Assembly: GCA_914767715.1 (NCBI GenBank)
Contig: OU612075.1
Location: forward strand, 22,940,001-23,004,000
Source of the DNA: Membranipora membranacea
Lineage: Eukaryota; Bryozoa; Gymnolaemata; Cheilostomatida; Membraniporidae
Length of the DNA stretch: 64,000 bases
Direction: 5' to 3'
Every line of letters starts with the position of its first letter. The stretch's first letter is position 1. The translations under genes were made by a program, and so were the position numbers. Of the stretch, positions 5,446-58,978 are shown piece by piece. Below the pieces are notes generated by a model. That model worked only from the letters and a program-made list of their open reading frames with translations. It did no database searches and was not told the origin of the DNA.

Positions 5446-8400
5446 CGTAGAATGAAGAGGGTCGGTCTGACCATCAGAGACAGTAGACGATAGCAGAGGA
5501 TCTGCGTAACTTGTCCCATCTGTCACTCTGCCGTACTTCACTTTACGATTGAACCCGGCTAACTCAACCTTAACCTCACAGACAGAGAACCTGATCAGCT
5601 CACCGAGCGCCGCTCCGTCATCTTGTCGTATTATCAGTATGAAACTACCGGCAATATGCGGCTTCAAAACATTCACTGCAACGATAAAGATCACAAGCAT
5701 AACGACCTACTAGAAATAACAATAAAGATTGAGAACTCTAATACAGTGGAAGAAGTGATAGATTTGGTCAAGGAATTGTTTTACACCTTCAGTTCGATAT
5801 TAAGTGTTTGAATCTGTTCTGTTATATGACAGGTGAGACTCACATCTGACAGGTGTTAGAGAGTGTTGTACTGTAAAATCAGGGTGCAATGTATTATCTG
5901 ATAAGTTTCTCAGTGAGAATGTGACGGGTTGTGTCGTTCCCTCATCTATCGACATGTAGAACTGAGGCTGCTCTAATGGTACACAAGAATCGGCAAGTAG
6001 ATAACTCCTGACATCTCCGTCCAGAACTTCAAAGATAATAACAATAATTTTCAAAAATGTAATCATTTCATCACCAAAATCGCATAACCAAGCTTCAGAC
6101 ACAAGGATACAAATTGTTAACAGTTTGCAGTCAGTCTCCTGTCTTCATAATTGTATAACCATTATGCCAGGACACAGTGGCATTGCCATGCAGCCACTAA
6201 AACAAGATTGGCCGCATGACAAGGTAAAGGACAAACCAATGGTCAAGAAAACAAGCCTTCAACATACTAGTGATGTAAGTGGTACCAGGATGTCGTATCA
6301 TATAAGGATAATTGTGACCCACCATGACTCCATATCATCAGACCTCCGATCCCTCCGCTGAACAAATCTCCAAATATATAAATATAACTATCCTCAGGAA
6401 TAGATAAGTCCTGATCAGTGTAGTGAAATATCTGTCTGCCAGTGTTCTCAAAATCAACAGCTACATCTACCAAAGTGTTTGTAGGTTAAAACCTCACTTG
6501 TGATTACCGGTTCTAACTCTGAAGCTATTTACTCATATCAACCAGTCCACACACAGGCTTTCAAACAAGACTAGTTCCTGTGGCAACCATTTCCGTATGA
6601 GGAATTCTTGAATGCTGAAAATTTGACAGTTACTCACTGAATGCGTTCCTTCTTCGTAGGATACAGTAATGATGCCATGATATCGGAGTCATCTGCTCCT
6701 CAACCAGAGCCACATACCCTCTGAGTAACATATAGACAAAACCACTACTGGACACAAACACACTTATACCTGCAAGAAAATATTAAAACCTTCTCAATAA
6801 GTTATAGGTAAAAAGAGATGCAGTGCAGGGGCGTATATTCTAAGAAAATTCACTCACTGACGTTTTAGAGATGAGCATAATGATCGGGCGCAGCCCGATC
6901 CACACGCCGTAGGCGTGGCGGGGAGGGTGTGGGTGTGTGTCAATACACCGGGCTTTTGATTGGCTTGTCCAGCTCAAGGTCAAAAGTCAAACTTTGTATG
7001 TACCGTAATTCCTCACTTATAAGACCCCCCCTTGGGAAAAGTAAAAATGCTCCAGTTATAAAGCACCCATTTGGAAAAAAATCTGACATTGTTGGGATCC
7101 GAACCCACGACATTCTTAATAAACAGAGAATACCAGGCAGACGCTCTACACACTGAGCCTGGCTTGAACGTAATTAACACGAATTTTTATTTACGGATAT
7201 CCGTGGTCCGTGATTGCTAATATACGCCACTGACGCAGTGGTCAATGCTGCCTCAGGATAAATGTCAGGACACAAGTTCACATTTCATTTTATAGGTTGT
7301 TATTTTTAAAATCTATCAATTCGAGTCCTAGAACAGGTAAAAAACACAGGTTTTTCATTGCGATTCGTTTTGGATATCTTACGTAGGTGGAGGGCGGTAG
7401 TCTAGATTCAGGCACTATTTTAGAAAACATGTGCATCATGTGCATGCTTATCCAAATAATGCTACGGCTCCACATTTAACTCAGCTCTGGACTGACACCA
7501 GTTTCTAATAATCTGATTGGCTGAGAAGTATAAGTCTCACCTTCAGACTAATCTGATTGGCTGAGAAGTATAAGTCTCACCTTCAGACTAATCTGATTGG
7601 CTGAGAGGTATACGTCTCACCTTCAGACTAATCTGATTGGCTGAGAAGTATAAGTCTCACGATTAGACTAATCTGATTGGCTGAGAAGTATAAGTCTCAC
7701 CTTCAGACTAATCTGATTGGCTGAGAAGTATAAGTCTCACCTTCAGGCTGACCGTTATTATCTTCAGGTAGATCCTCAGTAGTTATCCTTATTACAGTGG
7801 TATCAGCAGGAGGCAGCGGGTCAACTCGCAGCCAGAAACACAATCCCCAGTTATGTATTCTACTGAGCGGTACCTGAGATTTGATGAGCGGTAACACATC
7901 GGTGGTGCTTCTATTGTTCACCAGAGCATTATAAAAGTGACAAACTTTATTCTCTGCAACGGAAGGGAATACAATATATAATTACAATAATAATGTTGTA
8001 GTACTGGCAGCTTATCGCAACGCAGATTCTAGGCTGTGATAACTTCCACGTGTTTTCTATCCTATAAGAAAGAATCTAAAGATAAATTTATCAGTCCCAA
8101 TCCCAATTGAGCACACACTCCCAAAACTAAACTAAGTACCTTTCTTGATACAGCGATAGTATATTCGTAGTTTGAGAGGTAGTCCTCGCTGATTCTGACA
8201 GAGGCTGCTCTCCAGAATACTTCTAACTGCGCTATTGTTGTCTGATGCTGACGTGATATCGACAGTGAGCTTGGTGAGATGATTAAACAGTTTGCGAGCT
8301 TGTTCAGTCACATTAGCAGTACAGTGTTCTTCCTGAAAATTTAAAACTAAAATAAAATAACTGAACTTTTGGGAGTTTACAATGTCCATGAAGGTGACTC

Positions 8401-11400
8401 AAATAGCTCTCATCAAGGCAATAAGAGTCCTCGGTTACTAGTTGAATGTAAATCTCAGGTTGTAGGTACTAGACAAAGTGAGAGCTCTAGCAGTATATTG
8501 ACATACTTACACCGGCAGATGGAAACCAGTAGGCCAATAAAACATCAATCTCATAGTCTTCATTCTCACAGTCTAATGTGGCAGCGCTATGGTCATCAAA
8601 CAGCTCCATGTATGCTGTAATACAGGGAGTAATACAGGGAGTAATACAGGGCGTAATACAGGGTGTAATACAGGGCGTAATACAGGGTGTAATACAGGGA
8701 GTAATACAGGGAGTAATACAGGGTGTGATACAGGGTGTGATACAGGGCGTAATACAGGGCGTAATACAGAATGTAATACAGGGCGTAATACAGGGCGTAA
8801 TACAGGGCGTAATACAGGGTGTAATACAGGGCGTAATACAGGGAGTAATACAGGGAGTAATACAGGGTGTAATACAGGGTGTAATACAGGGCGTAATACA
8901 GGGCGTAATACAGGGCGTAATACAGGGAGTAATACAGGGAGTGATACAGGGTGTGATACAGGGTGTGATACAGGGCGTAATACAGGGTGTAATACAGGGC
9001 GTAATACAGGGTGTAATACAGGGTGTGATACAGGGTGTGATACAGGGTGTGATACAGGGTGTGATACAGGGTTAATACAGGGTGTAATACAGGGTGTATT
9101 ATAGTGTAACTGTAGAATAATACCTAATCTATAATAGGTAAGGGCAGATGCGATGTAAAACCAGGGACCTCTGATAATCATCACAGAGACATTCAGTGAG
9201 GACACAGAAGTAATTATGATGTTTGTTGAGTGCTTGGCGAGGAGTTGTTACCTTGATTGCGCACCTGTATGATCGAAGGGCACCCACTGACTGGCCAGTA
9301 GAGGAGGCCGAGATGGGATACACACATTCTTTATAAACTCTGTGATTCTGTTATCACATCCTTGTATATCTGAGTGTATAAAGTTCACCATCCCTGTCAG
9401 GAAGAAGACAATGTGCAGTACAACAATCATACTCAGAGAAGTTATATAATATATATTTCTGTTCTTTAACTCATATCTATCAGTGTTTGTTCGGTAGCTG
9501 TAAATTGCTGAACAGGCTGAACGGACTGAACAGAATTTCTCAGACTACTATTTGTTTGATTCTATACATGATTGGCTAATTTTGCATGAGCGTGGACAAA
9601 TTCTTATATTCTGCTCATTAATTTGTTTATTTAAAGTTTGCATTCGCCTTGGTTTCTTTCTATTTTTCGGCATTACACTAGGGAAGTAACTTGTCTTGGC
9701 AAGCTTCGTTTGGGTGGAACCATAAGCCCCCCCCCCCCCATAACAAAGCTTGTCAAGACTGGCTAGATGGAGGGTTAAGCTGGATAATTTGGCTGGAGAA
9801 AAAATTCTTTGCAAAGAAGGGAGTAACGTAGTGACTAGAGATTTTAGGAGATCAACTAAGAGGAAACACTAATAACCTACCACAAAAGGCAGCCGGGTCA
9901 GCTAAGAACGACTGTCTCTGTCGTACTAGAGTTTTGTTACTCTCGTATTTATGTATATCAGTAGATGTAATATAGATTGAGAAATCATCAGGTTGCTCCC
10001 TCGAGTTCACACATGCACTGAGATCTGGTCAAGACACGAGTAATTCTCACAGGCAATATAAAGGTTCGGCCAATAGACTGATTAATAATCATTTGAGACA
10101 GGAAAGTATGTGCCTCTTCACTGAGACACATACTTGTGGTGATGTTACAACATCGGATTGTGCAGTAACAATTGGTTTACTCATGGTTGTCATTGATTTG
10201 ATTTGCAGCGAACAGTTTTATGTTGAACCAGTTTCAAGCTTTAAAGTTACTTTGGTTTTAATTATGTGCTCTAATTCCTCAATGATCATGATCCATTTGA
10301 TTTAGTAATCTGTCTTGGGTAAATTTATTTTTCTATGGTCCTTCTCAATTCTTGTGGCTCTGATGTCTGAATACATACAGTTAGCTTGGTGTTGAGAAGT
10401 GAAACTTATAACTAGAGACCACCACAAACAAGCACTTTGTGTGATTGGTTTATTGATTGGTTGATTGGCTCTTAAAAGCAAAGTCAGATTGATAATTAAT
10501 CTTACCTGTCATAACGGAGACTGAATGAATGGCGACCAGCTCAAACAGTTTTATTCTGATCCATGGCTGGTTCCAGGCAGAGGCTGGTTCTGAGCTAAAC
10601 CATAACCATGACTGCTGAGCCCTGACACAAGTAGTGTTCTGTCCATCGATCGCAGAGTCTGAGTAACTAGCCCTAACATTGTTATCAGTCCAACTACAAC
10701 AAAGGTTTCATTATAGACTTAATAATAAACCTAGACAAGACACTATAAAGAGCTAAAGCGCTGAGGCGTTTAATTGTGTGTGACGTTAACTGTTAACTGT
10801 TAACTGTTAACTGTTAACGCGGTAACTGTAAATTGCTGAACAGGCTGAACGGACTGAACAGCTGAACAGAAATTCTCAGACTAAAATTATCATTTGTAGT
10901 CATTTCTCTGGGTGACTATCACTTCTCAAACATATTCCTCTTAACCAAATGATTTGATGAGTCATTAAGTTCCTGTTGGCACCTAATATAACACATTAAG
11001 GGCAAGCAAATGAAGCAATCAATGTGCCATTTCTGCCCAAATCTGATGGTGTTCTGGAAATTGGACACCAGAAACATTATCCAGCTCAACCTTCCATCTA
11101 GCCAGTCTTAACAAGCTTTGTTTATAGGGGGAGGGAGGCTACTTTCCATCCATTCACTAGTAGTGTAACGACGAAAAAATTACTGTGAATAAAATTGAAA
11201 GAAACCAAGGTGAATGCAAACTTAAGATAAATAATTTAATGAGAAGAATATAAAGAATTGTCCATGCTTATGCAAAATTAGCCAATCACGTAAAGAATCA
11301 AACAAATAGTAGTCTGAGAAATTCTGTTCAGCTGTTCAGTCTGTTCAGTCTGTTCAGCAATTTACAGTTACCCTGTTAACGTTAACTGTGTAGTAGGTAC

Positions 11401-14076: not shown

Positions 14077-17000
14077 TTAAACGGTAATAATACGATGTTG
14101 AGGTATTTTCCATTTGACTGTATGTTTATACATACACTTAGTCTGTTCTATCTGCCATGTGTGCTTAGAGCACTTATATATCATAGGATACCCGATATAC
14201 TCAAACGGTATGTTATCTTGTTTAGCCTTTTTCTGGGAGTAGATCATCTCGTCTATGATGTCAGGCCTCTCCCACGACTTAAAGTTAAATTGATAAGTAT
14301 TTATATATCTATCGTAGTAGTAGAGCTCACGCACTGAGTAATCAGCTTTGTGTAGGATCGTCATCTCCCTAGCCCAGCAGTAGTTATAATAATCCCAAAT
14401 CTCCCAGTTAGAATATCTCAAGTTACTGTATCCCGTTATATTACCTTCTTTAGCGCATATACCTGCAGAGTAAGAAAATTACCTGCAGAGTAAAATATCT
14501 TCATGCAGTGTAAAAAATATACCTGCAGATTATATTAAAAAACTGGACATTATTCAGTTGTCAACTACCATTCAACCAAATTAACTGGGAGTTGTCTTCT
14601 TAATGTCAATGAGGAGATAAGACATAATATGACTTATCTCCTCATTGATATTAAGAAGACAACTCCCGGTCCTGATTGAGACACACCTAGACCTTCATAG
14701 GGATGGCAAAGTAATTTGTACTATGGAGTAGGGAACTAAAGTTTTGATGAACCAAAGATTGCCATTCAACCATATGTGATCAACTTGATCAACATCGTTA
14801 GTGATATTCTATTCAATTTCCGTATTGTTTCCTTTTTGTTTTTCTGCCACTGAGTGCAAAGCATTCCAATGAGATAACTTTGGTTGCCAATAAAAGTATA
14901 TATCTTTACATTGAAAACAAAACCGATTTCCTGATGAAAGGCATTTCGTATGTAGATGCTATTTATTAAAGAGATTACAAAGTTACAAACAAACCATTGA
15001 AAAGTCAATTATATGCGGAACACTGTGGTTGCAAAATCTTCCCCTATTTCAGGCAAACATAGCCCAGACCAAATAACTGCTGCTTGCTCAGATATTTAAT
15101 TACCTCCTGTCACCGAGTACTGATTACTGCAGCTTTTGAATCGCAACACCAAGTCACAAAGTAATAAGGATAATACAGGATACAAAATGTCATTGGAGTT
15201 TTCACTTACCAACAAAAACATCCTCCATAGGCATGAAGGGCACCTTGTAGCTGTTATCAACTACTCTATCAGCAGCCTTATATGACAGGACATAACCAGG
15301 ACCACCCATATAGTCAGGGTATACATTGTGCGGATATTCCTGTAATGTTACATGCCACTTATCAGATGTATCACGTATCGGAGGCTTGTGTGACATCATC
15401 ACACCAGTGTACAAATCTGTAACATCAAGGATAGAATTATCATTATTTAATTATTACTATGCGCAATAACTCGGTCTGAAGAAGAAACTCGGAGCTTTAT
15501 ATTGAATATGGAAAGATATAACCCACAAATAGTAATCGCTTTGAACGCTGACTGAAATATGATACACTGTTTCTGGTGTTTCATAACTACTCTGGTTAAG
15601 ATGTGGTTGATAAGAAAGGTCAAGACCAGAATCCCCGGCAGAGTTTGAGCGCTTTAAATAATAAAACTGTCCTGATAATCACTATGATTCCATGTTGCGA
15701 TTTTGTAAGGATTTCGGGAGTAATCGCCCCATGGAAATGACACTTTCAGATTGTGACGGATGACTTTTTGGACGCGAATATCCATACCGTGTTAATTCAA
15801 CCTACTTTCTAATTGGCAGCGTGGCTGAATGGTTAGCGCGTGCTTGCACACAAAGGGAATACATGTGGGAGTCTGGGGTTCAAGTCCCAGCTGCGGTAGA
15901 TGTTTTTTATGTTTTTTCCATCATGAGAATGGTTAGAATCCACTGGATTCTAACCATTCTAAAATTGGATTCAACCACAAATTCGAAGCATGGAACCATA
16001 GTGATTAAAACTGTGATAACATGAGTAGATCTTTTTGAGCTAAGCTATATTTGCCTTAGCTTCAAACATTCATATCCAATACTGTAAATTACGACTAACA
16101 TTTAAATACTGTATATAACACTTACATTCAGTCATCTCAGAGGGCAGTTTAAGAAGTTGTCTGACCAGCACATCAAAGTTAACAATCATATCATCATCTG
16201 TTTTGAGAATATATTCAAATGGCTGACATTCATCAATAGCCCAGCGAAGGCTCAACATTGTCTTCAGTGTGAGGTTACGATAATTGTCTTTAAAATCAAT
16301 ATGTAAGATATCTCTGTGCCTACAGTAAATAAGTAGGACAATCATATAGAGATAGGGAGGCTGGGAGACCCTCCCTGATAGAGATAACCGGGTAACAGTT
16401 GATTCTTATAATAAGGCTGGTCACATCAGAGATAAAGCCTGCAGTGCGGATCTGTGGCTGATTATAATCACAATATACCACTTTGAGGGTGTGTTACATA
16501 TATGATGTATTACATTATGTATTACAATCAGCTTAAAGAGCACTGTGGGCTCCATCTCTGATGTGATGTGACAGGGGGGAATAATAAGGAGTAATGCAGG
16601 GTTGACAATTGTTTTGGTGGCCAAAGTAGTTTCTGTTTGGAATATAGATGGCTTGGCTTTAATAAACAGCCTCAGGCCCATGGTACGCAGGAATGGTGTG
16701 GGAGAGGACTCGGTGTGGCCACCCACTTGAGGATTGACCGGGGGCACCTCCCGCAAAGTGTTTGCGTTGGGGCCCCAAAATTGAAGGCTCTCAAGTATAC
16801 CTAAGGTCATATACCAATGAATATAAAAATACATCACAGCGGTAACAAAAAAGGTAAGCGGCCCTCACATGATGTTATGATATAATGTATAATATGGCTC
16901 CCTGATGAGAAGAAACAAGAGTTAAGATCAGCTAATAATACAATTGTTCACCTTTTGTATTCCTCTTGTAGAAGCTCATAAGTTTGATTTATTCCGCTGT

Positions 17001-18574
17001 TAGCCGTGATAAACATCACAGCTACTCTCCTTCCATCTACATGGTCTACCTTCCATCTACGCCTGAAATAGTCTCTCTCCATAGCATTGTATGTGGTAGA
17101 TTCTACTATAACAAGTAGGAACACAGGCTCACTGCACACATTGTCTGAAATCAAGAGAAATTCTACTATAACAAGTAGGAACACAGGCTCACTGCACACA
17201 TTGTCTAAAATCACGAGAGCTTCTACTTTAACAAGTAGGAACACAGGCTCACAGCACACATTGTCTAAAATCAAGAGAGATTCTCCTATAACAAGTAGGA
17301 ACACAAGCTCACCGCACACATTGTCTGAAATCACGAGAGCTTCTACTATAACAGGTAGGAACACAGGCTCACTGCACACATTGTCTGAAATCAAGAGAGC
17401 TTCTACTATAACAAGTAGGAACACAGGCTCACTGCACACATTGTCTAAAATCACGAGAGCTTCTACTTTAACAAGTAGGAACACAGGCTCACAGCACACA
17501 TTGTCTAAAATCAAGAGAGATTCTCCTATAACAAGTAGGAACACAAGCTCACTGCACACATTGTCTGAAATCAAGAGAGCTTCTACTATAACAAGTAGGA
17601 ACACAGGCTCACTGCACACATTGTCTGAGATCACGAGGGCCTACTATGTCACTCATGCAAACTACAGTTATACTTTTGGGTGATAAAAACATTAAATATT
17701 ATCTAGAACATTCAGAAACCATACAGCTCTCACACATAAACACATCGGCTCGCTGTGGCGGGCCCCTCAGGAGCAGGTTAGAGCAGGTTAGAGGTTAGAG
17801 CTATTGGGTATTCTCACCTGAAGGGTTGAGATGGTATTTATAGTTGAGTGTGTGTAGCTGGGTTCCTTCTTGCCTAGCCTGTGATCCTCGCCTAGCATGT
17901 GATCCTAGCCTAGCCTTTGCTCCTCGCCTAGCATGTGATCCTTGCTTAGCCTTTGATCCTTGCCTGCCCGGATGTTGATGATTAGCCGGAGTCAGTGATT
18001 GTGACCTTAATTTGGTTCTTGAATCTTCACTCAGAGCCTCTCTTAACCTCTTTGACTAATAATTACGAAAACAATCTCAATAAAATGCAAGCTTATGAGA
18101 TCAGAGATCAGGTTTGTTTTTGTAGGATGGATCCCAAGCTGTGAAACCTTTTTTAGTTCCGATAAGCATAACTATCCTATGAGCATGCAATATATGACAG
18201 TAGACTCCATGAAACCATCAACGGTGCAGATGTTAGTACAAAATAAATACAGGTCGATTATATAATACCTGCTGGTTGTCTTTCAGTATAAATGGCTGTC
18301 CTCATATCCATCAGAAATTTTACCAAGCGAGAAATTCAAATCATAACGTAACAGTAACGATTTATCATTTTACAAGATACTGCCATACCTCGAACACTAC
18401 AGCTGCTGGTGATTGGTGGAGGTCTTTATTTTGGACCTGAAGTGACCAATCAGGTGTCTGCTTGATGAAACTAGGACTTCTCCATAGGTACAAAGCAGAT
18501 AATACCAGAAAGAAGCCAAACTGTAAGACAATAGCAGCCCACAGTATGGAGTGAGAGGCCATCGTACGAGCCAT
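14077..18574 (-). CDS. GT31 beta-1,3-glycosyltransferase, complete (copy A)
   Basis: Six exons join in phase to 408 codons: 18,389-18,574; 17,818-17,878; 16,952-17,144; 16,126-16,319; 15,210-15,416; 14,077-14,462. Exon 1 encodes a short N-terminal tail and a transmembrane signal anchor (about residues 10-30), typical of a type II Golgi enzyme. Residues about 85-300 carry GT31 landmarks: ERDYFRRRW, DNYRNLTLKT, the metal-binding KTDDDM (DDD at 188-190), YMGGPGYVLS and EDVFVG (near 275-280). The family transfers galactose or N-acetylglucosamine in beta-1,3 linkage in the Golgi; which sugar cannot be told. The tandem paralogue at 20.1-31.4 kb has the same exon structure. Exon 3 may start at any of nine repeated acceptors (17,144 to about 17,624), each adding 20 in-frame codons. 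Confidence 0.85.
14455..14530 (-). repeat. Repeated acceptor-like motif at exon 6 of GT31 copy A
   Basis: On the minus strand CTGCAGGTA occurs at the real acceptor (14,462) and again about 25 bp away, both after TACTCTGCAG. A further related copy follows in the same intron. This is a short, degenerate version of the splice-site repeats seen elsewhere in the window. Confidence 0.6.
14587..14667. mobile_element. Short hairpin MITE-like inverted repeat
   Basis: Arms of about 35 bp (14,587-14,621 and 14,633-14,667) are near-perfect reverse complements with an 11-nt loop. The outer part begins 'gggagttgtcttctta'. It sits in intron 5 of GT31 copy A. Confidence 0.85.
14835..14910 (+). mobile_element. 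3' tail relic of the two-ORF LINE family
   Basis: 'gccactgagtgcaaagcatt' and the following 'gccaataaaagtatat' match the 3' end of the LINE at 40.8-44.95 kb ('ggcactgagtgcaaaacatt', then 'gccaataaaaagtatata'). Only the 3' tail is present, as expected of a severely 5'-truncated insertion. It lies in intron 5 of GT31 copy A. Confidence 0.75.
15817..15902 (+). repeat. tRNA-like SINE head
   Basis: Box A-like 'TGGCTGAATGGTTAGCGCG' and box B-like 'GGGGTTCAAGTCCCAG' with a good T-stem are present. The acceptor stem does not pair properly and the anticodon-loop position lacks the conserved U33. I read it as a tRNA-derived SINE rather than a functional tRNA. Confidence 0.5.
17101..17640 (-). repeat. 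60-bp minisatellite, 9 units, spanning exon-3 acceptor of GT31 copy A
   Basis: Nine 60-bp units. On the minus strand each has a pyrimidine-rich tract, TTTCAG or TTTTAG, and then the first about 44 nt of exon 3 (ACAATGTGTGC...). Sixty is divisible by three and no unit contains a stop, so the frame stays open from 17,634 through exon 3, giving 20-residue repeats built on DNVCSEPVFLLVIVEALLIS. Units 2-4 and 6-8 share variants (SEL or GEL, then CCEP, then SEP), showing that a block of several units was itself duplicated. Confidence 0.95.
17865..17970 (-). repeat. Tandem repeat at exon-2 acceptor of GT31 copy A
   Basis: About six degenerate units of 'gcctagcatgtgatcct' type. The exon-2 acceptor (GATCACAG before 17,878) lies in the end unit, and other units keep AG|GCTAGG-like junctions (for example GAGCAAAG|GCTAGG). 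Confidence 0.8.
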
Positions 18575-18927
18575 CAGTGATAGATTCGACTACAGCTGTA
18601 GTCTTATGTGGTGGAATTGTAGGATAATCAGTAAGAGGTAGACTATAAATGAACCTGAAGGTGAACAAGTTTGTTGATAAATGAAGAAGTAATACATGTA
18701 GTAATATTAATGGAATTCAGTGGAGACTTTGCATGACTTGTATGGAGATAAGACAACAAATACAGTTACGTAGTGACCACCAAAGCGATTAATGTATTAG
18801 TATATTAAAACATCTGTAGATTCACAAGTGCCTAATATCCTTTATCTGAGACATGCTTCCTGTGAGGCTCGTGTGGTAGTATCGCTTCCTGTGGTAGTAT
18901 GGGTCACACATACAGGAGCACTATAAG

Positions 18928-19540: not shown

Positions 19541-20809
19541 TGCAGGTGCAATTCAGCTCTTGTTTATTATATTCAAAGCTAAAATTTGAGTGTTCATTTT
19601 ATGAATTGCATCATTTTACTATATTTGTGAATGCTATTGTTGTAATTTATTCAACCTTAGAGGAACACTGGTAGGCTAGGCTAAGATACTGAAATATCTG
19701 CATACAAGCAGTAAAAGTAATAAGCAACTACATAGGTATGTGTACTGTAGGGGTAGGAAAACGTATTTTCCTCCGCAATAGAAAGATTCAAAAATTATCT
19801 AGATGAGGTGGGGAGGGGATGGGAATTACGGTCCATCCATGACAACTTGGCAGACTCGGAAAACAGGAGGTCTTTGTGAACAAGCTCCTGTCCCAGAGTA
19901 CCACTCTGCATCTCGCAGTGTGGATGCAATTCTAAGCTAAAACTTGAGCGTTCATATTTGAATTGCGTCATTTGACCTGATTTTACAAATGTTATAGTTG
20001 TACTTCATCCAAACTAGAGAGAGACAGCCCTAACAAAAGTGTTAGGCTAGGTAAAAGTTATGAATAGCTACATAATGGTAAAGCAAATACAAGGAAAAAA
20101 CTGGGAGCCTCCCTACTAAACAGGGAGACTCGTCAGGTTCTATAGATCAATTATCCTCTCCTGGGGAATGCCCCTTTTGACTAAGTTTGAGTGCTGACTT
20201 TTGTTAAACATATACCAAGTATAGTTTGAACATCTATAGATCATAGGATATCCTACATTACTTGTTATAGATTTGTTCTGAATGTATATCATATCTTTAA
20301 TACTAACATCACCAGAGCCCCATGATTCAAAGTCATAACGATGACTGTTTATCATTTTATCAAAATAATACAGCTCTCTGACATTAAAGTCAACGTGATG
20401 AAGTACCGCAACGTCGAGGAAGTGGCAGTAATCATACTCAGCCTGTATTGAACCTCTTTGGAATCGAACATTACTATATCCGGTAATGTTAGCTTCTTTA
20501 GCACACAGGCCTACAATATAAGATAACATATATTTTACTCTCATGTTTGAGTTTTTAGATGGTGCTGCTGCCCATTCAACACTTAACAGTACTGTTGTCT
20601 GTGAGTATGTTAACAAGGTGAGTGCGGCGTGGGGTCAGTAGTGTGATGTGTGGTTAACAAGGTGAGTGTAGTGTAGTGGAACCGGATATTAGCATAAGGA
20701 ATAGCGACTGACAGAGAGAACTAAGAAGATTAGCCACTCCTTCTCGAATACATGTGAGTTGAATACACGGCAGTGTGATGCGTGGACGTTGATGTGTTGG
20801 CGGTTGAGT

Positions 20810-21680
20810 GGGGAGATCAGTAGTTAGTGAGTGAGTGTGAGTGTTGTTAGGATGTGTATGTGAGTGAGTTGGTGGATGAGTGAGGAAGTGTGTGGGTGGG
20901 TGAGTGAGTTGGGGGAGTGAGTGGTTGGGTGGGTAGTTGTTTGGTTGGGTGGGTAGTTGTTTGGTTGGGTGGGTGAGTTGGTTGGTTAGTAAGTTAGTGG
21001 GTGAGTTAGTCTATGCACTTTGCAGGATTTTCTTGGATTTATCCTCCCATTACTTCTACATTTATCTTACTTCATATAGCCTAAGGGTCCAATAATACAC
21101 GTTGTATGACCTTTTGACAGTGTCATGAATGACCGCCCTTATTCAAAATGAAATATTTGGTAGTGAATATATCTGCCCATGGGTATGTATTTCCCAAACA
21201 TGAGGCTACTTTCCCAGAGTCTGACTAGAAAATTCTCATACCTGGAGCAATATAGTAGGTGGCATGAATAGAAATCAATAGATATTTCAGTTTTAGTGTT
21301 CCCCTTTATTTACTTATAATATCTAAGGTCAGACAACACCAGCAAGATCCTGCATTGTTCTCGGACTTTCCCTCGCCGGGAGGCCGTCGGGCGAAGGGCA
21401 AAAGTCTGGGGGGCTCAGACTATGGGTGAGTGGGTGGGTGAGTGGGGGAATGAGTTGTTGGGTGGGTAGTTGTTTGGTTGGGTGAGTTGGTTGGTTAGTG
21501 AGTTAGTGGGTGAGTGGGGGAGTGAGTGGGTGGGTGAGTTGGTTGGTTGGTTAGTAAGTTAGTGGGTGAGTAAGCGAATATGTGGGTGAGTGGGGGAGTG
21601 AGTGTTTGAGTGGATGGGCGATTGAGTGAGTGAGTGGGCAAGTGAGTTAGCGATTAGTGAGTGAGCGATTAGTGAGTAAT
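20810..21680. repeat. Degenerate gtgagtggg/ttggttggg repeats (two tracts)
   Basis: Tracts at about 20,810-21,010 and 21,420-21,680 are G/T-rich with repeated 'gtgagtgggt' and 'ttggttgg'. A GC-rich stretch (about 21,370-21,415) lies between them. This is in intron 5 of GT31 copy B. No coding content. Confidence 0.8.
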
Positions 21681-22084
21681 TGCTGAAATATTTTTCTGAT
21701 GATAAAAATTGTGCCAGAACTTATTGGTTAATGATGTCACATTTCTGAACACCAAAAGTGTAAGTATGCGATGGAAACTGTATCAAGGAAAAGAAAGATA
21801 ATAAAACCAGGGTCCTCAAAATGCAATTCTCCCGCCAACACCCTACAATGGCCTAGAACAGAACATGGCGGAGGGATATTGTAAATGTTTGGTATCGAGG
21901 CACCACCACAGAGGAAACAACCTTCTTCTAACACTGGCCAAGAATAGAGTGGCTAGAGCTCGAGTGTAGAGTGAAGGATAATCAAACCTTGCAGCATAGT
22001 ACAACATTATTATTACCTTTTTGTTAACTTTAGTTCCTGTTCACTACACCTTCTACTGATTTGGCATTAAAGTTTGCTATCCAA

Positions 22085-22480
22085 AATGTTGTTCGTAAGG
22101 CAAATCAAAGAATGTAAATAATTAAAAACTTTCTGTATTTGAGTACCAAGCCATTAGCATGCATGCTTTTTAAAAGTTTTATTGTTTCACTTATAATAAT
22201 GTATTGTCTACCAGTCCTCTATCCTGCCATTTATCAACGAGATAAGAAGGACATGCGCAAAATATTTAAAGATGCTTCCTGGCTAGGATTACAGCTTAAT
22301 TTTGATCTCGGCACTCTAGTTAACACTCATTTAAAAAATCGTGTAATGCAGATATTCACTGACGACGAACACTTTATCCAGAACTACCTCGAACGGTGCC
22401 CCTCAGGTCGGCTTAGACACCGTAAATACCGCACTGCCTGGGGCAAAGACTGCTTTTTAAGACACATGTGCATTTGGAAA
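22085..22480 (+). mobile_element. 5'-truncated LINE fragment
   Basis: The frame contains MLFKSFIVS, then KIFKDAS, CPSGR and GKDCFLRH, matching the C-terminal end of the LINE ORF at 25.1-27.9 kb (MLFKSFIVS, KIFKDAI, CPSGR, GRDCFLRH). Only the C-terminal 120 or so residues are present and they are diverged. Confidence 0.85.
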
Positions 22481-23989
22481 ACATTGAAAATGACCCAGAA
22501 TGAAAATGACCTGAGTATGAAAACAACCTTAAGTTGACCTTGACATATATATAAAATAGTGCAAGGAGATTAAATCAGTCTATAACCGGAAATGAAAATG
22601 ACCCAACCAATCAGACACCTACATGAAAATGACCCAACCAATCAGACACCTACATGAAAATGACCCAACCAATCAGACACCTACATGAAATGATCCAACC
22701 AATCACACCCATATATGAAAATGACCCAACCAATCCTTGAAGGTATTCATAGTTAAAGGTAAAGTGAGGAATATTTACACAGCCTTGGGAGGCTGTTTGG
22801 GGTGGGGTTACAAACCCCCTACACAAGAGAGTTAGCCTAGGCTAGTTACACACATGTATCAGTTTCACTTTGGTAACAGCTGCTATTATGTTGACTCTTG
22901 ATCAATGAACCTCTTCATTGATTTTATGGTGGACATACAGTATCGTTTTTATGATAAAATATACAAAGTAAGAATACTCCACACATTTTGCTGTCTATAA
23001 CATAGCAGCATTGTGTATTTTGGATATCTTAAGATATTTTCAGCAGCTCAAAAGTCAAAACAAAATCTGAATTCCTAACTTTTTGATGACTATTCATAAT
23101 TCTCTAATCATATTAACTTAAACATTAGCATTGAGTAGCATATATATTTTTTGTGTGTTATTGCAGGTGAACTAACTGGGGCAAGGCTATCCGATTGCTG
23201 TAATATCTTTGACAGTCATGTTGCTCGTCACATACTCCAATTTTCTAGCGATGATGGCAACAGAAAGCGATAAATAGTAAAGGAATTTTGTATTGTTGTT
23301 GGGTTTTGCACGTTGTCACATTTTGTGCAGAGTTTTGTTACATTTTGCACATGGTGTCATGTTGTGTGCATTTGTCACTTTTGTCCTCAAACAAGCAAAT
23401 GATTACTCCAATTCAGTCATCAAACATTGGCAACCACAAAGGTCATTTACTGACTAAATGTGATGTTATAGCTGATATCAGCATTGTTCTCACCTCTCTA
23501 CGATTAACACTCTGATGACTAATCAACGTAAGACCCTCTCTCTCAGATATATACATGACAAATGTCACTTTACAAATGAATTTGTGATTGATTGTCAATC
23601 CCGGACGCTACTGCACAACATATAATAAGGACTATAGAAGCGCTTCGAACAGCAATAGTATTTTGCGCTATGTAATTTATTATTTGATTATGATTTCTTT
23701 TTCTATGCTTCTTGGTATTTTTAGTTTGAAATTTTGATATATGATATTTTACACCGATCAATTCAAGGAGCAAATATGACCATTGTATTTGTAAACAACA
23801 ACAAAAAAAGAAACAATAAGAAAAAAGGTATTGATGTAGTTAGGTGTATATATAAAAAGGCTTTTTCCGCAAAGAGCTGTGTTGGATTAAGGGAGGGCCG
23901 GGGTTTTGTGATGTGACAGGGTTTGAATGTAGGTAATGGTGAAATGGATGGCTGGTGTGCTCTGCTACATTATGGACATAGTTTATTCT

Positions 23990-51954: not shown

Positions 51955-54900
51955 TCAGGACAGTTTGTAGAAAATATCGATTGTAGTTTCATGGCACTGA
52001 CGGAGATCGAAGTTGAAAGTTCCTAGTGTGAGCTTACCCTGTGGAGGTTTGAAGTAATCTAATCCCCGTCCTATCTTAATCACCCAACCACTGCTCAACC
52101 TTCAACGAAAATACCGAGTAAATAAGACGATAAACATCACAGCGCCAAACATTGATGCGGAGTTTTTAGCCCTCTACTCAAAGTTGTTAAAACATTATTA
52201 AGGAGTTGGTAAGGCCTAAACTACTGAAAGTTGAAAAAAAGTGGGAGTGGCTGAAAATTTTCATCGGATTTAAATTTTGCTCGAGGCTAATCGGTTCTTC
52301 ACAAAACATTACTTTCACTTTTCATTAGACTTCGGTATCACTCTGAATGAAAACCTTTATAAAGGTATCTCAAAATCAAAATGTCTAATGCTCCAACCAC
52401 TCTTGGCCAAATCGAGGGTAGACTGAACTAAGTGATTAAAACTGCCTATACGTGATTGCCGAGGATATTTTAAGATGATAATAAGGTGCAAAGCTCCACA
52501 GCACACATTTACATAGAGCTGATAGTACACAGTATACAGTTAATCCATCTGGGAGTTGTCCCCCTGACTGACTAAGAGTTATCCCCCTGACTGACTGGGA
52601 GTTATCCTCCTGACTATCTGGGAGTTATCTCCTGACTAACTGGGAGTTATCCCCCTGACTGACTGGGAGTTATACCCTGACGGACTGGGAGTTATCCCCC
52701 TGACTGACTAGGAGTTATCCCCTGACTGATTGCGAGTTATCCCCCTGACTGACCGGGAGTTATCCCCCTGACTGACTGGGAGTTATCTCCCTGACTGACT
52801 AAGAGTTATCCCCCTGAATGACTGGGAGTTATCCCCCTGACTGACTGGGAGTTATCCCCCTGACTGACTGGGAGTTATCCCCCTAACCGACTGGGAGTTA
52901 TCCCCCTAACCAACCGGGAGTTATCCCCCTGACTGACCGGGAGTTATCCCCCTGACTGACAGGGAGTTATCCCAACCCTGAGACTTACCTGATCTCTCTA
53001 TCATGTAGACTGTCTGAGTACTGAACCTCTAACCTAACTCCATATCCATTCAGACTTTGAGATATTTGCTGCACCTTATCTCTCTGATTCTGTGGCTCGT
53101 GAGTGTCACTTCCTGTCTTCAGTTTTATCACTTTTACTCCACATTGTGAGTTGACAAGTAACTCGCAAAACCTCAGAAAGTTTAATATCTATAAAAAAAT
53201 GTCAAACAACAGAAGTGTAAATGGACTTTTTGGTCTTGTAGAATACAGAGTTCTGCTGATATGTCGTAACCTGATCTAAGATAAATGTATAGACAGTTTT
53301 CTAAGCTCTAACTTGAGGAGTTGTCCTCTCTCCAGTTTGGTACTTTTAACCCACGCCGCATAAGAAAAATGTGCTGAAAAAGGGTTATCTTTAAAACCGC
53401 TTATGTTAGGATAAAAATGATTTTTGATTCAGAATCTGCATCATTGAAAACTGATAGGGACACAGTTTGGGAAATAATTTCGGTATTCGGATAGTCCATT
53501 ATATCAATTTCAATTTTTGATTCAGAATCTGCACCATTGAAAACCCTATGAGAAAGTGTTTCCAAATCATTGGGGGCTTGATAGTTGATAAATCTTAATT
53601 ATAGTGACAAAATTGATGAAAAATTCCATGAAATTTGTCAGCAAAACTGGCAGAAATTGATATAATGGACTATCCGAATACCGAAATTATTTCCCAAACT
53701 GTGTCCCTATCAGTTTTCAATGATGCAGATTCTGAATCAAAAATCATTTTTATCCTAACATACGCGGTTTTCAAGATAACCATCTTTTCAGCACGTTTTT
53801 CCTATGCGGCGTGGGTTAAAAGTACCAAACTGGAGAGAGGACAACTCTGGATTGAGGCCCAAATCAGAGCTAAGAAAACTGTCTATTGGTAAACAAACAA
53901 TCTAAGATCTACTTGCAGCCTGCTACAAGCCAAATTAGTCCTGCATCTTAAGGTAATTCCAAAAGATTGTGATAGGTTAATAAGATCCGACTTCGCTCAC
54001 TTTTTCAAAACAGTTAGAAGTGTTGATTTGTGCAGTAACAATTTAAAATGCATTTAAATCTATTATCAAATTCTAAAAGCACACCAAAACACATAGATAA
54101 CTCATAGTCCTACCTGATGATGAGATCTAATATAAGGATCATCTATCTGCACATTATCACATTTCTCTTGTAGAAATCTGTACATAACAGAGTGATAAGA
54201 GTAACCAGTAGTATTCTCTCTTATAGTTATCTGCTCGTGGTATCTACCGGCTGGTATATAAATATACAAACTATGTATTATATATATAAATACACACAAT
54301 ATATCTTATATATAAATAGAAACTATATATTATATATACAAATACAAACTATATATCATTTGGTTTGGTTTGGGTGGTGTGAGAGGAATACTATAGCTCA
54401 TACTGATCAGGATATATTAACTACCAGATAATCATCTGACTGTTGTGAGTTGATATGCCGTAGCGACAACTGACATGCAAATTAATAAACTTTATTGCGC
54501 TTCTTTGCTCATTGAAACGAAGTGAACAGGAATGAGAGTGATACAAGCTACATGTAGTTCAACACACTCCTAAAATGATGAGTTGCTAGGGGAAGCTCAT
54601 ACCAACTTAATGTGTGGAGTTATGTACCTAAAACTGTGATACCGTTAAGTTCAAATTCTGATCTCTACTATGATCGGACACAGCAGTATTTCTCACAACA
54701 CTCACTAGTTTTCTGAGATTGAATGAGTGATTTGATCTGTTCTGCTCTGTCCATGTATTTTGCCAGTCTACTCTTTAGGGCTGACTTAAACTCCTCTGAC
54801 TTTCCCGGATCTAAAATACAACACAAGACATTCTTCAGAGTAAGATTTAAGACTTAACAGTATAATTAATACAGACCATAAGACCATAATCTGAAGAGAG

Positions 54901-57900
54901 ACATAGTTCAGACAACCTTTTAAGAAGTGGAAAATAATTTCATATGGCTGTGAAAATGTCGACAAAATTTTAGCCAGATTGGATGGAGTGGTAGAACAAA
55001 CTAGCGAAGAGGATTTTTTTTTCTTCTATGCACTAGGTCTTATTTGACCGCCCTATTTGACGGGCCCCCTTAAGCTCGGGTGGCTTTTGTGGGGTAGTAC
55101 CCTATACCCTTGCCCGCCGTTGCCGGCTACTCTTTTTTGAAGAGGCCGGCTACTCTTTTTTCGAAGAGGCAGAGGGGGATCTTTATACTGCATGCAAGCA
55201 CACAGTAGACCTCCTGTATGTATGGTCCTGATCCGAACAGACCTGGCTAGGATGAATGGCTTGCCAGTGCCAAATCAGAAATGATAGCCGGCGCCGGGAA
55301 CCGAACCTGGATCATAAGATCACAAGTCCATACCCTTAACCGTCAGACCACTCCTGACTCCTGGTGAGAGGAGAAACACTGCCCATAGCATCAAGTTAGG
55401 AGCTTACACAAACACTGCCCATAGCATCAAGTTAGGAGCTTACACAAACACTGCCCATAGTATAAAGTTAGGAGCTTACACAAACACTGCCCATAGCATC
55501 AAGTTAGGAGCTTACACAAACACTGCCCATAGCATCAAGTTAGGAGCTTACACAAACACTGCCCATAGCATCAAGTTAGGAGCTTACACAAACACTGCCC
55601 ATAGTATAAAGTTAGCAGCTTTCACAAACACTGCCCATAGCATCAAGTTAGCAGCTTACAGAAACACTGCCCATAGCATAAATTTAGCAGCTTACACAAA
55701 CACTGCCCATAGTATAAAGTTAGGAGCTTACACAAACACTGCCCATAGCATCAAGTTAGGAGCTTACACAAACACTGCCCATAGTATCAAGTTAGGAGCT
55801 TACAAACACTGCCCATAGTATAAAGTTAGGAGCTTACACAAACACTGCCCATAGCATCAAGTTAGGAGCTTACACAAACACTGCCCATAGCATCAAGTTA
55901 GCAGCTTACACAAACACTGCCCATAGTATCAAGTTAGGAGCTTACAAACACTGCCCATAGTATAAAGTTAGGAGCTTACACAAACACTGCCCATAGCATC
56001 AAGTTAGGAGCTTACACAAACACTGCCCATAGTATAAAGTTAGCAGCTTTCACAAACACTGCCCATAGCATCAAGTTAGCAGCTTACAGAAACACTGCCC
56101 ATAGCATAAATTTAGCAGCTTACACAAACACTGCCCATAGTATAAAGTTAGGAGCTTACACAAACACTGCCCATAGCATCAAGTTAGGAGCTTACACAAA
56201 CACTGCCCATAGCATCAAGTTAGGAGCTTACACAAACACTGCCCATAGTATAAAGTTAGGAGCTTACACAAATACTGCCCATAGCATAAAGTTAGCAGCT
56301 TACACAAACACTGCCCATAGCATCAAGTTAGGAGCTTACACAAACACTGCCCATAGTATCAAGTTAGGAGCTTACAAACACTGCCCATAGTATAAAGTTA
56401 GGAGCTTACACAAACACTGCCCATAGCATCAAGTTAGGAGCTTACACAAACACTGCCCATAGCATCAAGTTAGCAGCTTACACAAACACTGCCCATAGTA
56501 TCAAGTTAGGAGCTTACAAACACTGCCCATAGTATAAAGTTAGGAGCTTACACAAACACTGCCCATAGCATCAAGTTAGGAGCTTACACAAACACTGCCC
56601 ATAGCATCAAGTTAGCAGCTTACACAAACACTGCCCATAGTATAAAGTTAGCAGCTTACACAAACACTGCCCATAGCATCAAGTTAGGAGCTTACACAAA
56701 CACTGCCCATAGCATCAAGTTAGGAGCTTACACAAACACTGCCCATAGCATCAAGTTAGGAGCTTACACAAACACTGCCCATAGTATAAAGTTAGCAGCT
56801 TTCACAAACACTGCCCATAGCATCAAGTTAGCAGCTTACAGAAACACTGCCCATAGCATAAATTTAGCAGCTTACACAAACACTGCCCATAGTATAAAGT
56901 TAGGAGCATACACAAACACTGCCCATAGCATCAAGTTAGGAGCTTACACAAACACTGCCCATAGCATCAAGTTAGGAGCTTACACAAACACTGCCCATAG
57001 TATAAAGTTAGGAGCTTACACAAATACTGCCCATAGCATAAAGTTAGCAGCTTACACAAACACTGCCCATAGCATCAAGTTAGGAGCTTACACAAACACT
57101 GCCCATAGTATCAAGTTAGGAGCTTACAAACACTGCCTATAGTATAAAGTTAGGAGCTTACACAAACACTGCCCATAGCATCAAGTTAGGAGCTTACACA
57201 AACACTGCCCATAGCATCAAGTTAGCAGCTTACACAAACACTGCCCATAGTATAAAGTTAGCAGCTTACACAAACACTGCCCATAGCATCAAGTTAGGAG
57301 CTTACACAAACACTGCCCATAGCATCAAGTTAGGAGCTTACACAAACACTGCCCATAGCATCAAGTTAGGAGCTTACACAAACACTGCCCATAGTATAAA
57401 GTTAGCAGCTTTCACAAACACTGCCCATAGCATCAAGTTAGCAGCTTACAGAAACACTGCCCATAGCATAAATTTAGCAGCTTACACAAACACTGCCCAT
57501 AGTATAAAGTTAGGAGCTTACACAAACACTGCCCATAGCATCAAGTTAGGAGCTTACACAAACACTGCCCATAGCATCAAGTTAGGAGCTTACACAAACA
57601 CTGCCCATAGTATAAAGTTAGGAGCTTACAAACACTGCCCATAGCATCAAGTTAGGAGCTTACACAAACACTGCCCATAGTATAAAGTTAGGAGCTTACA
57701 AACACTGCCCATAGTATAAAGTTAGGAGCTTACAAACACTGCCCATAGTATAAAGTTAGGAGCTTACACAAACACTGCCCATAGCATCAAGTTAGGAGCT
57801 TACACAAACACTGCCCATAGCATCAAGTTAGGAGCTTACACAAACACTGCCCATAGTATAGAGTTAGAAGCTTACACAAACACTGCCCATAGCATCAAGT

Positions 57901-58870
57901 TAGGAGCTTACACAAACACTGCCCATAGCATAAAGTTAGCAGCTTACACAAACACTGCCCATAGCATCAAGTTAGGAGCTTACACAAACACTGCCCATAG
58001 TATAAAGTTAGGAGCTTACAAACACTGCCCATAGTATAAAGTTAGGAGCTTACACAAACACTGCCCATAGCATCAAGTTAGGAGCTTACACAAACACTGC
58101 CCATAGTATAAAGTTAGGAGCTTACAAACACTGCCCATAGTATAAAGTTAGGAGCTTACACAAATACTGCCCATAGCATAAAGTCAGCAGCTTACACAAA
58201 CACTGCCCATAGCATCAAGTTAGGAGCTTACAAACACTGCCCATAGCATCAAGTTAGGAGCTTACACAAACACTGCCCATAGCATCAAGTTAGGAGCTTA
58301 CACAAACACTGCCCATAGTATAAAGTTAGGAGCTTACAAACACTGCCCATAGCATCAAGTTAGCAGCTTACACAAACACTGCCCATAGTATAAAGTTAGG
58401 AGCTTACAAACACTGCCCATAGTATAAAGTTAGGAGCTTACACAAACACTGCCCATAGCATCAAGTTAGGAGCTTACACAAACACTGCCCATAGCATCAA
58501 GTTAGGAGCTTACACAAACACTGCCCATAGTATAGAGTTAGAAGCTTACACAAACACTGCCCATAGCATCAAGTTAGGAGCTTACACAAACACTGCCCAT
58601 AGCATAAAGTTAGCAGCTTACACAAATACATATTGCTGACAGGATTATGATAAACTAAAAAAACTTCTTCATACTACCTATAAGAGGTTTGAATGACACA
58701 TATATAATGTATATATAACTTATCTCACCCTTTAGTACCTGTAGAAGTATCTGCATTCCTTCCTGATAACATATAAGGCACTCAGTGTACCGCTTACTAC
58801 TGTCTAGTTCTATAGCTCTCTTTATTATACTAATACCAGACATCTCCAGGCCTCCGCTGGCGTCACCCAT
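51955..58870 (-). CDS. MITD1: MIT domain-containing protein 1, complete
   Basis: Five exons join in phase to 242 codons: 58,729-58,870; 54,706-54,810; 54,114-54,250; 52,989-53,188; 51,955-52,099. Residues about 10-82 form the MIT domain ([26 protein letters not shown], then [16 protein letters not shown]), which in MITD1 binds ESCRT-III tails. The rest is the phospholipase-D-like C-terminal domain: [56 protein letters not shown] and the terminal [14 protein letters not shown]. In animals it works at the midbody during cytokinesis and abscission. Length and motif order match the family throughout. Intron 1 (3.9 kb) contains a 3.2-kb minisatellite, intron 3 a foldback element and intron 4 a 24-bp array. 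Confidence 0.92.
52545..52975. repeat. 24-bp minisatellite, about 18 units, next to a MITD1 donor
   Basis: Units of about 24 bp, 'gggagttatccccctgactg' plus 'actg'. The array ends about 14 bp from the exon-4 donor (52,989) on the intron side. Confidence 0.95.
53290..53890. mobile_element. Foldback element with about 230-bp arms
   Basis: 53,290-53,515 and 53,651-53,890 are inverted copies (for example 'ttggtacttttaacccacgc' against 'gcgtgggttaaaagtaccaa'). The same arm appears at window start 1-215. It lies in intron 3 of MITD1. Confidence 0.9.
55060..55365 (-). repeat. SINE-like repeat with tRNA head
   Basis: On the minus strand a head with 'GTGGTCTGACGGTTAAGG' (box A-like) and 'CAGGTTCGGTTCCCGG' (box B-like) is followed by a GC-rich body. 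The body includes a duplicated 'ccggctactcttttttcgaa'-type 25-mer. No good cloverleaf forms at the acceptor stem. In intron 1 of MITD1. Confidence 0.45.
55373..58627. repeat. 3.25-kb minisatellite, 36-bp unit with 32-bp variants
   Basis: About 90 copies of a unit starting 'aacactgcccatagcatcaa' and ending 'gttaggagcttacaca'. Variants: catc/tata after atag, ggagc/gcagc, and a 4-bp deletion giving 'cttacaaaca' (32 bp). Blocks of ten or more units recur in the same order (for example 55,590-55,960 and 56,020-56,390 and 56,780-57,150), so there is higher-order structure. It fills most of MITD1 intron 1. Confidence 0.97.
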
Positions 58871-58978
58871 AGTAACACCGGGTATGGTCACTCACTGAGT
58901 AACACCGGGTATGGTCACTCACTGAGTAACACCGGGTATTGTCACTCACTGAGTAACATCGGGTATGGTCACTCACTG
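58870..58978 (-). repeat. 27-bp repeat, 4 units, abutting the MITD1 start codon
   Basis: Four units of 'gtaacaccgggtatggtcac' plus 'tcactga'. On the minus strand each unit contains CAGTGAGTGACC, which resembles a splice donor, and the first unit ends at the ATG. This would be in the 5' leader. Confidence 0.9.

Follow-up and report, generated by a model that had tools for sequence, protein, structure and literature searches.

Minisatellite-like repeats that span exon-intron borders have been described in amphioxus as "mirages", in Adh3, the globins BflGb6 and BflGb9, troponin C, and PGBD5. In the accessible text of these reports, mirages lie at donors and acceptors, many of their units carry a GT or AG of their own, and they are presented as features of a few genes (PMC3087553, PMC3902484). 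In human genes within segmental duplications, internal tandem repeats with ~30-bp units occur at exon-intron boundaries and can alter intron structure, according to the available portion of PMC2812944.

Here we describe minisatellites at splice junctions in a window of 64,000 nucleotides, the whole stretch analyzed, from chromosome 11 of Membranipora membranacea (Bryozoa), 0.36–0.43 Mb from the chromosome end. We propose, with a probability of about two-thirds, that the junction arrays of this window are mirage-type minisatellites born from exon-intron borders and extended by repeat instability. A preliminary description of the window had stated that no system of this kind was known, which the amphioxus mirages contradict, as far as the accessible parts of PMC3087553 and PMC3902484 describe them. 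No report of mirages in a bryozoan was found among the papers listed in searches of the open-licence literature, and none of five repeat or intron terms occurs in PMC13326412.

Arrays and junctions in the window

Tandem Repeats Finder recovers the units and copy numbers that the preliminary description gave for its junction arrays, confirming that these are real (Table 1). Our exon models, all on the minus strand, place eight of its nine junctions as claimed, with those at 7,741, 8,614, 33,384, and 36,357 based on open frame and splice consensus only. The ninth, a supposed acceptor at 17,878, is a coding repeat: the frame of the adjoining exon runs open through the array, and a paralogue exon matches it by eye. 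At 52,989 both the donor and the nearby array stand, with a gap of 15 rather than at most 14 bp. The array at the right limit of the described pattern, 58,978, abuts the MITD1 start codon, and the model has no splice site at that point. Units differ among the junction arrays (12–60 bp, up to 40 copies), in agreement with the earlier view that they do not form a single mobile family.

Table 1. Arrays and host genes of the window (window coordinates; TRF, Tandem Repeats Finder; GalT, galactosyltransferase family)
Positions	Strand	Feature	Gap to junction	Basis and details
7509..7746	-	40-bp x5.9 array at donor 7,741	none (spanned)	TRF; exon 7953-7741
8616..9098	-	12-bp x40.3 array at acceptor 8,614	1 bp	TRF
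14457..14529	-	20-bp x3.7 array at acceptor 14,462, last exon of GalT paralogue A	none (spanned)	TRF
17101..17637	-	60-bp x8.9 array at acceptor 17,144 of GalT A	none (spanned)	TRF
17872..17965	-	18-bp x5 array within GalT A coding exon, no junction		Frame open through array into exon
29104..29508	-	30-bp array at donor 29,509 of GalT paralogue B	none (reached)	TRF, two rows (3.3 + 9.9 copies)
32784..33382	-	20/21-bp x29.1 array at donor 33,384	1 bp	TRF; exon 34402-33384
36056..36376	-	26-bp x12.3 array at donor 36,357	none (spanned)	TRF; exon 36613-36357
52549..52973	-	23-bp x18.6 array in intron at MITD1 exon 4 donor 52,989	15 bp	TRF
54255..54357	-	26-bp x4 array at MITD1 exon 3 acceptor 54,250	4 bp	TRF; missed in the preliminary description
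58871..58979	-	27-bp x4 array immediately upstream of the MITD1 start codon		TRF; lies at the gene edge, where no splice site is modelled
52039..58870	-	MITD1 orthologue		Exons 58870-58729, 54810-54706, 54250-54114, 53188-52989, 52099-52039 (last exon end approximate); spliced translation
14077..18580	-	GalT paralogue A		Exons ~18580-18389, ~18055-17818, 17144-16952, 16319-16126, 15416-15210, 14462-14077
20137..31379	-	GalT paralogue B		Exons ~31379-31206, ~31048-30909, 30082-29890, 29701-29509, 28878-28672, 20510-20137

Support varies among the host genes. The MITD1 orthologue scores 231 bits to human MITD1 (PDB 2ymb) and has MIT and MIT_C domains. GalT A matches Galactosyl_T (PF01762) at 151.6 bits; its last four exons form an intact spliced frame and its first two are placed by open frame only. 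GalT B has a LINE in its last intron and a frame broken in exon 4. Neither the large exon at 33,319–34,518 nor an exon at ~40 kb, which we take to be RPL21-like, has a Pfam match. Arrays at 22,592 and 28,034 were considered as junction-linked and rejected; both have the same unit, in opposite orientations and next to LINE reading frames, which suggests a link to LINEs.

With 8,052 bases, arrays account for ~13% of the window, and we dropped a coverage-based measure of enrichment because long arrays often put junctions "near" by length alone; contact of array edges under random placement is the fairer test. For nine of the 26 arrays, one of the 68 modelled junctions is no more than 16 bp away, compared with a mean of 0.65 contacts under random placement that forbids exon overlap or 2.15 when up to 45 bp of overlap is allowed, and none of 400 shuffles reached nine; these figures are optimistic because the window was chosen for the pattern and some exons were sought where the preliminary description had flagged them. 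Restricting the test to the 29 better-anchored junctions, four of which belong to the open-frame-only first exons of the two GalT genes, gives five contacts against random means of 0.30 and 1.04, again with 0 of 400 shuffles. The claimed enrichment of arrays at junctions is supported in the window, and arrays bearing the donor consensus greatly outnumber the reversed pattern genome-wide (see below). An ab initio score for exons at array edges recovered most window junctions and was noisy: 8,616 scored at control level and 29,104 moderately, with no score at 28,432, 47,772, or 17,872.

Five of the nine junction arrays contain copies of the splice site inside their units. At donor 7,741, CTGAAG/GTGAGA (slash, splice position) is present in five of six units, once at the junction itself and again at +40, +120, +160, and +200. 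The array at 36,357 repeats 20 exonic bases and has 11 further copies of TAG/GTAGGG, and that at 29,509 has units bearing GTAAGT, with 12 donor-like sites. At the paralogous GalT A donor, 16,126, a good unit and a decayed one were recognized by eye. Among the acceptors, the array at 14,462 holds CTGCAG/GTA copies at -20 and -60 and a weaker AG at -36. Each unit of the 60-bp array at 17,144 includes ~44 exonic bases; AG/ACAATG is kept in all nine printed units, and one frame is open throughout.

The other four arrays abut or sit near their junctions, and their units lack a site as good as the true one. No donor of at least 1.5 bits was found in the units at 33,384, and no AG or acceptor-like site of its own was found upstream within the array at 8,614. 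The array beside 52,989 offers two weak GTCAGT sites as its only donor-like sequences, and four weaker AG sites lie inside the array beside 54,250. The earlier suggestion that each unit brings its own splice signal applies to five of nine window arrays and, as described below, to three of six followed up elsewhere.

Donor-bearing arrays across the genome

Across the genome, a run of three perfect AGGTAAGT donors in succession has 454 matches; the reversed pattern has 79, confined to 5 loci. With a second donor spelling, 253 matches stand against 16 for its control, one control 8-mer per pattern being a thin control. Single sites occur 12 times for AGGTAAGT and 17 times for TGAATGGA in 657,982 strand-bases, and the donor-array excess is therefore not explained by site frequency. 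Among the AGGTAAGT matches listed (100 of 454, from C1 to nearly the end of C3), a hand count gives 18 distinct arrays, or 26 loci if nine loci of one 31-bp family are counted apart, and a per-base excess of 10.6–15 fold. The 31-bp unit recurs at these nine loci on one strand within ~0.8 Mb of C1. For AGGTGAGT, three of the 11 listed loci are plain simple repeats, with units of 9–11 bp.

Upstream sequence was read for six donor arrays. In three cases the array stops precisely at an open exon, and the final 16–18 bases of that exon recur in the unit with at most two mismatches. One of these three exons, at the array at C1:32,366,5xx, belongs to an IP3-receptor gene; its alignment to ITPR1 (112.5 bits) extends to the final residue of the exon. 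A fourth array has, by eye, a donor ~20 bp away, and no exon could be tied to the remaining two, L090 and L092.

Among the listed matches on three chromosomes, nine of the 18 AGGTAAGT arrays are found in the terminal 2 Mb, compared with 10.4% expected; the window itself is also near an end. Junction anchoring is not uniform. In samples outside the window and its flanks, no junction arrays were found at 24 donors and 12 paired acceptors of homeobox genes, among the eight arrays in 20 evenly spaced 4-kb pieces (80 kb), or, by eye, among the 13 arrays in ten pieces of 4 kb taken 0.4 Mb from chromosome ends; for two of those 13 arrays, a possible exon lies ~30 and ~60 bp away. The pattern is enriched and far from universal. 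The homeobox search of the genome itself returned 79 matches, with a small Hox-like cluster.

Origin of the junction arrays

We propose that a short tandem duplication would first cover an exon-intron border, taking in ~5–45 exonic bases, the splice signal, and some intron. Ordinary repeat instability, probably slippage or unequal exchange, would then copy the duplicated border further into the intron side. The copy adjoining the exon would stay put, such that the exon keeps its end, and inner copies would become intronic pseudo-junctions, with the exon-proximal unit presumably the one spliced. Tolerance of a duplicated splice site and a seeding bias at junctions may together make the excess. 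We favor this mirage-type origin because the junction falls inside the units at five sites of the window and three donors outside it, because donor-bearing arrays are in genome-wide excess and concentrated near the ends of the three listed chromosomes, and because a junction that bears an array in one GalT paralogue has about two units, one of them decayed, at its counterpart in the other.

Tolerance alone could produce a similar picture if minisatellites form throughout the genome, and most of all towards chromosome ends, with exonic ones purged and those stopping at junctions surviving, and if a rich window had been picked. Array density fits this account: the 64-kb window has 26 arrays and the evenly spaced pieces have 8 over 80 kb, and density appears higher towards chromosome ends, where 40 kb contain 13 arrays, five of which share a single locus. 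The negative samples outside the window fit it as well. However, the 0.65 contacts obtained when exon overlap is forbidden fall well short of nine, the excess of the donor motif over its reversal is genome-wide and independent of the window, and purging alone should not enrich junctions above intron interiors; we consider tolerance alone doubtful. An origin of the arrays as young introns, or as intron extensions, from exon ends tandemly duplicated at an AGGT proto-splice-site seems quite unlikely. The eight window arrays in introns with both ends modelled sit at one end only, no intron among these eight was seen with a repeat at both ends, and intron positions are, by eye, common to GalT A and B with or without an array, although the units that, at several sites, combine as many as 47 exonic bases with a GT or AG would suit such intron gain, which the accessible text of PMC3087553 proposes for amphioxus mirages.

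Splice sites that are U1-bound or R-loop-prone might themselves promote duplication, or spare sites might be selected for. The units of the arrays at 8,616–9,098 and 32,784–33,382, which lack splice signals, speak against such coupling and lead us to regard it as unlikely, despite the excess of donor-consensus-centred arrays with unrelated units and the AG/ACAATG retained, with one open frame, in the 60-bp acceptor array, whose frame may have stayed open by chance as the units were homogenised. We also raise, as a possible if speculative extension, that splice junctions are preferred duplication starts, through a transcription- or splicing-linked process or spare-site selection, and that many, perhaps hundreds, of independent junction arrays exist genome-wide, densest near chromosome ends. 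Tandem repeats are a common assembly problem. An artefact is nonetheless very improbable given a 66-fold HiFi assembly (available text of PMC10290214), the shortness of the nine arrays (0.07–0.6 kb, units matching at 77–96% in Tandem Repeats Finder), and the intact exon frames of GalT A and MITD1.

Junction arrays show how repeats can accumulate along gene borders and leave the gene intact. With a second, distant phylum and a measurable genome-wide excess, mirages would become a testable general phenomenon. One could then ask at which places minisatellites originate, in what way introns grow longer, and how a single site is picked by the spliceosome out of a dozen near-identical ones. The HiFi assembly, alternate haplotype (GCA_914767555.1), and RNA-seq (ERR6464929) of Membranipora, as set out in the accessible part of PMC10290214, make these questions directly testable.

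Comparison with described systems

Human subtelomeric minisatellites cluster near chromosome ends, as the bryozoan arrays do, but here the phase of the unit is tied to the splice junction. Introners, one dispersed family making whole introns, share with these arrays a tie to introns, whereas each bryozoan array has its own unit, with the exception of the 31-bp unit at nine C1 loci. The duplicated exon end with GT is as expected from AGGT intron gain, unlike the position of arrays at one intron end in the eight window introns and the sharing of introns by paralogues with or without an array. The human repeats, in the available portion of PMC2812944, occur in recently duplicated primate genes with transcript support; ours occur in unrelated genes, with diverse units, and are read from genomic sequence.

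The closest likeness is to amphioxus mirages. In five of nine window arrays and three of six donor arrays elsewhere, bryozoan units span the border with copies of the splice site, while the other four window arrays abut or sit near it. Bryozoan arrays also lie at both donors and acceptors, with GT or AG in many units, and their unit lengths (12–60 bp, up to 40 copies) compare with 10–160 bp in the accessible text of PMC3087553 and PMC3902484. Amphioxus mirages are described as leaving normal splicing undisturbed and as unstable in length between alleles or in soma; the bryozoan arrays are known here from the genome alone and compared between paralogues. Amphioxus hosts are cephalochordates and ours is a bryozoan, such that the two are alike in form, with no common descent claimed. 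Tandem duplications of exon-intron borders are already known from amphioxus; measured in the bryozoan, and new as far as literature searches show, are the genome-wide excess and the terminal bias, together with the phylum itself.

Splice-junction arrays in the window

Merged tandem arrays (period at least 9, score at least 80) number 26 in the window, 8,052 bases altogether, and nine of them are in contact with one of 68 modelled junctions, contact being defined as a distance of at most 16 bp. The 29 better-anchored junctions account for five contacts, at 14,462, 17,144, 29,509, 52,989, and 54,250. Random placement gave means of 0.65 (68 junctions) and 0.30 (29 junctions) contacts with exon overlap forbidden, and of 2.15 and 1.04, respectively, with 45 bp of overlap allowed. 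The observed number was reached in 0 of 400 placements in all four runs alike, a significance that is overstated because the window was chosen by a reader, some exons were sought at that reader's flags, 4 of the 29 junctions have an open frame as their sole basis, and a portion of the 68 coordinates was placed approximately by hand.

The window occupies positions 22,940,001–23,004,000 of contig C11, 0.36–0.43 Mb short of the end of chromosome 11 (23,367,560 bases; contig C1 has 41,072,641 and the genome 339,339,785). In the accessible text on Membranipora membranacea assembly tzMemMemb1.1, the longest scaffold is 41,072,641 bp and chromosome 11 is 23.37 Mb (PMC10290214). All window junctions under discussion are on the minus strand. 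Human MITD1 scores 231 bits against a near-identical translation of the window's MITD1, which has MIT and MIT_C domains. The last four exons of galactosyltransferase paralogue GalT A splice into an intact frame (Galactosyl_T, 151.6 bits). GalT B has identical intron positions (by eye), carries a LINE within the last of its introns, and shows a frame break in exon 4, the exon beside the 30-bp array; it is possibly a pseudogene. Genes at 5–11 kb and 33–38 kb are predicted from open frames and splice consensus alone, with domain matches below cut-off.

GalT B donor 29,509 leads into the 30-bp array, whose unit is that junction's own flank, and the matching GalT A donor, 16,126, has a different layout of one good and one decayed unit followed by unrelated sequence (by eye). 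The two look like one shared ancestral splice junction at which, with an array in B and about two units in A, the array would have grown or been lost.

Coordinates of junctions, arrays, and neighbouring features; exonic bases per unit are approximate, permit up to two mismatches, and use array limits from TRF
Feature	Position	Strand	Observation
Donor	7,741	-	AAG/GTGAGA recurs four more times at multiples of 40 bp, one unit lacking it; 6–11 exonic bases
Acceptor	8,614	-	Array abuts or nearly abuts; no scoring splice site in units
Acceptor	14,462	-	Three scoring AG sites upstream; 6 exonic bases
Acceptor	17,144	-	AG/ACAATG kept in 9 of 9 printed units; 44–47 exonic bases
Donor	29,509	-	Followed by twelve donor-like sites; 0–4 exonic bases
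Donor	33,384	-	Array abuts or nearly abuts; no scoring splice site in units
Donor	36,357	-	TAG/GTAGGG recurs in eleven more copies downstream; 20 exonic bases
Donor	52,989	-	Array abuts or nearly abuts; two weak GT sites
Acceptor	54,250	-	Array abuts or nearly abuts; four AG sites, each weaker than the true acceptor
MITD1	58,870-52,039	-	Five exons, single joined frame
GalT B exon 4	29701-29509	-	
18-bp x5 repeat	17872-17965	-	In frame in GalT A coding exon; six-residue repeat ahead of catalytic domain
36-bp x91 array	55374-58626		3.25 kb in MITD1 intron 1; long open frames through it look like repeat by-products
27-bp x4 array	58871-58979	-	First base adjoins MITD1 start codon
Paired arrays	22592-22735, 28034-28113	opposite	Common core unit, flanking LINE reading frames; look LINE-linked, not junction-linked
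Shared stretch	1-200, 53300-53880		Ends in cggcgtgggttaaaag; again near 53.7 kb, inverted near 53.3-53.5 kb (by eye); looks like a fold-back element
Right-flank array (10 kb read)	L008:86-220		Begins roughly 9 bp from a donor; exon's R3H match below cut-off
Left-flank array	L009:4,295-4,721		About 4 bp separate its start from a possible donor (partly by eye) scoring no better than a quarter of controls
Left-flank array	L009:2,427-2,520		Possible donor some 60 bp away (partly by eye)
31-bp donor-bearing array	C1:33572675-34379183	single	Nine loci over about 0.8 Mb, as if inherited within a local gene family
Hox-like homeoboxes	C1:21406192-21469916		Compact run (gene names by eye); one Hox4-like homeobox lies apart on C2 (name by eye)

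Donor-bearing arrays across the genome

We sought AGGTAAGT three times in succession, 10–40 bases apart, with the reversed pattern as control. Genome-wide there were 454 matches (154 + 300) versus 79 (70 + 9) for the control, the latter confined to five loci, with 70 inside one long 44-bp array on C9. A hand count of the 100 matches listed, which cover C1, C2, and nearly all of C3, gives 18 distinct arrays, or 26 loci if nine C1 loci of one 31-bp unit are counted singly; per base, arrays were 10.6 to 15 times the control among the matches listed. Single 8-mers of motif and control were about equally frequent (12 and 17 in 657,982 strand-bases). A second donor spelling, AGGTGAGT, gave 253 matches versus 16, and the 100 listed fall at 11 loci, three of them plain simple repeats with 9–11-bp units. 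Half of the listed AGGTAAGT arrays (9 of 18) fall in the terminal 2 Mb of a chromosome, against 10.4% under an expectation that disregards gene density.

For six of these 18 arrays (L090–L095) we read 400 bases each. At three (L091, L093, L094) the array meets an open exon exactly, and the exon's last 16–18 bases recur in the unit with at most two mismatches. The L093 exon encodes inositol trisphosphate receptor, ITPR1 residues 1334–1417 aligning through its last residue (112.5 bits); Csf1_N and BLTP1_N matches in L094 are weak and far below cut-offs, and L091 and L095 have no Pfam match. A possible exon stops about 20 bp ahead of the L095 array, the L090 read falls within its array, and the 400 bases of L092 contain no clear exon. 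The array at the IP3-receptor exon (C1:32366594) and a AGGTGAGT array (C1:32,377,187) are about 11 kb apart, and this gene may hold several mirages, the amphioxus name for such border-crossing repeats.

Samples from elsewhere speak against junction arrays as a universal rule. At 24 homeobox loci where the homeodomain match stops at an intron, no array lay within 16 bp of the exon end (0/24) or of the paired acceptors (0/12). Twenty evenly spaced 4-kb pieces held 8 arrays, and scoring identified no exon-like edge on any of them; two are 334/335-bp satellites, which fill pieces on C2 and C10 (L062, L078) and likely belong to large satellite blocks. At a distance of 0.4 Mb from chromosome ends, ten pieces of 4 kb each contained 13 arrays, five of them in one piece (L083), and inspection by eye placed no array within 16 bp of an exon; possible exons lie about 60 and 30 bp from the arrays in L080 and L081, respectively.

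Origin of the arrays and known systems

We propose, with a probability of roughly two in three, that these are mirage-type arrays, seeded at junctions and in genome-wide excess. Most likely, a short tandem duplication would happen to cover a splice junction and then expand by ordinary repeat instability, the array being tolerated because its exon-proximal copy preserves the exon end. Were tolerance alone responsible, junctions should be no richer in arrays than intron interiors; the donor-motif excess favours an additional bias, whether in how duplications arise or in which of them are retained. To any specific cause of that bias we assign a much lower probability.

The preliminary description, which reported minisatellites repeatedly anchored on splice junctions, knew of no described system of this type. 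That statement falls, as mirages were already named in amphioxus; the papers listed by our literature searches included no bryozoan report and no genome-wide measure. Minisatellites at exon borders are also described, in the text available, as altering intron structure in human segmental duplications (PMC2812944). According to the accessible portions of the amphioxus reports, mirages are tandem repeats across the exon–intron border of Adh3, globins, troponin C, and PGBD5, RT-PCR suggested normal splicing despite many AG- or GT-bearing units, and length instability was recorded (PMC3087553, PMC3902484). Amphioxus mirages and those Membranipora arrays that span or reach an exon–intron border are alike in form.
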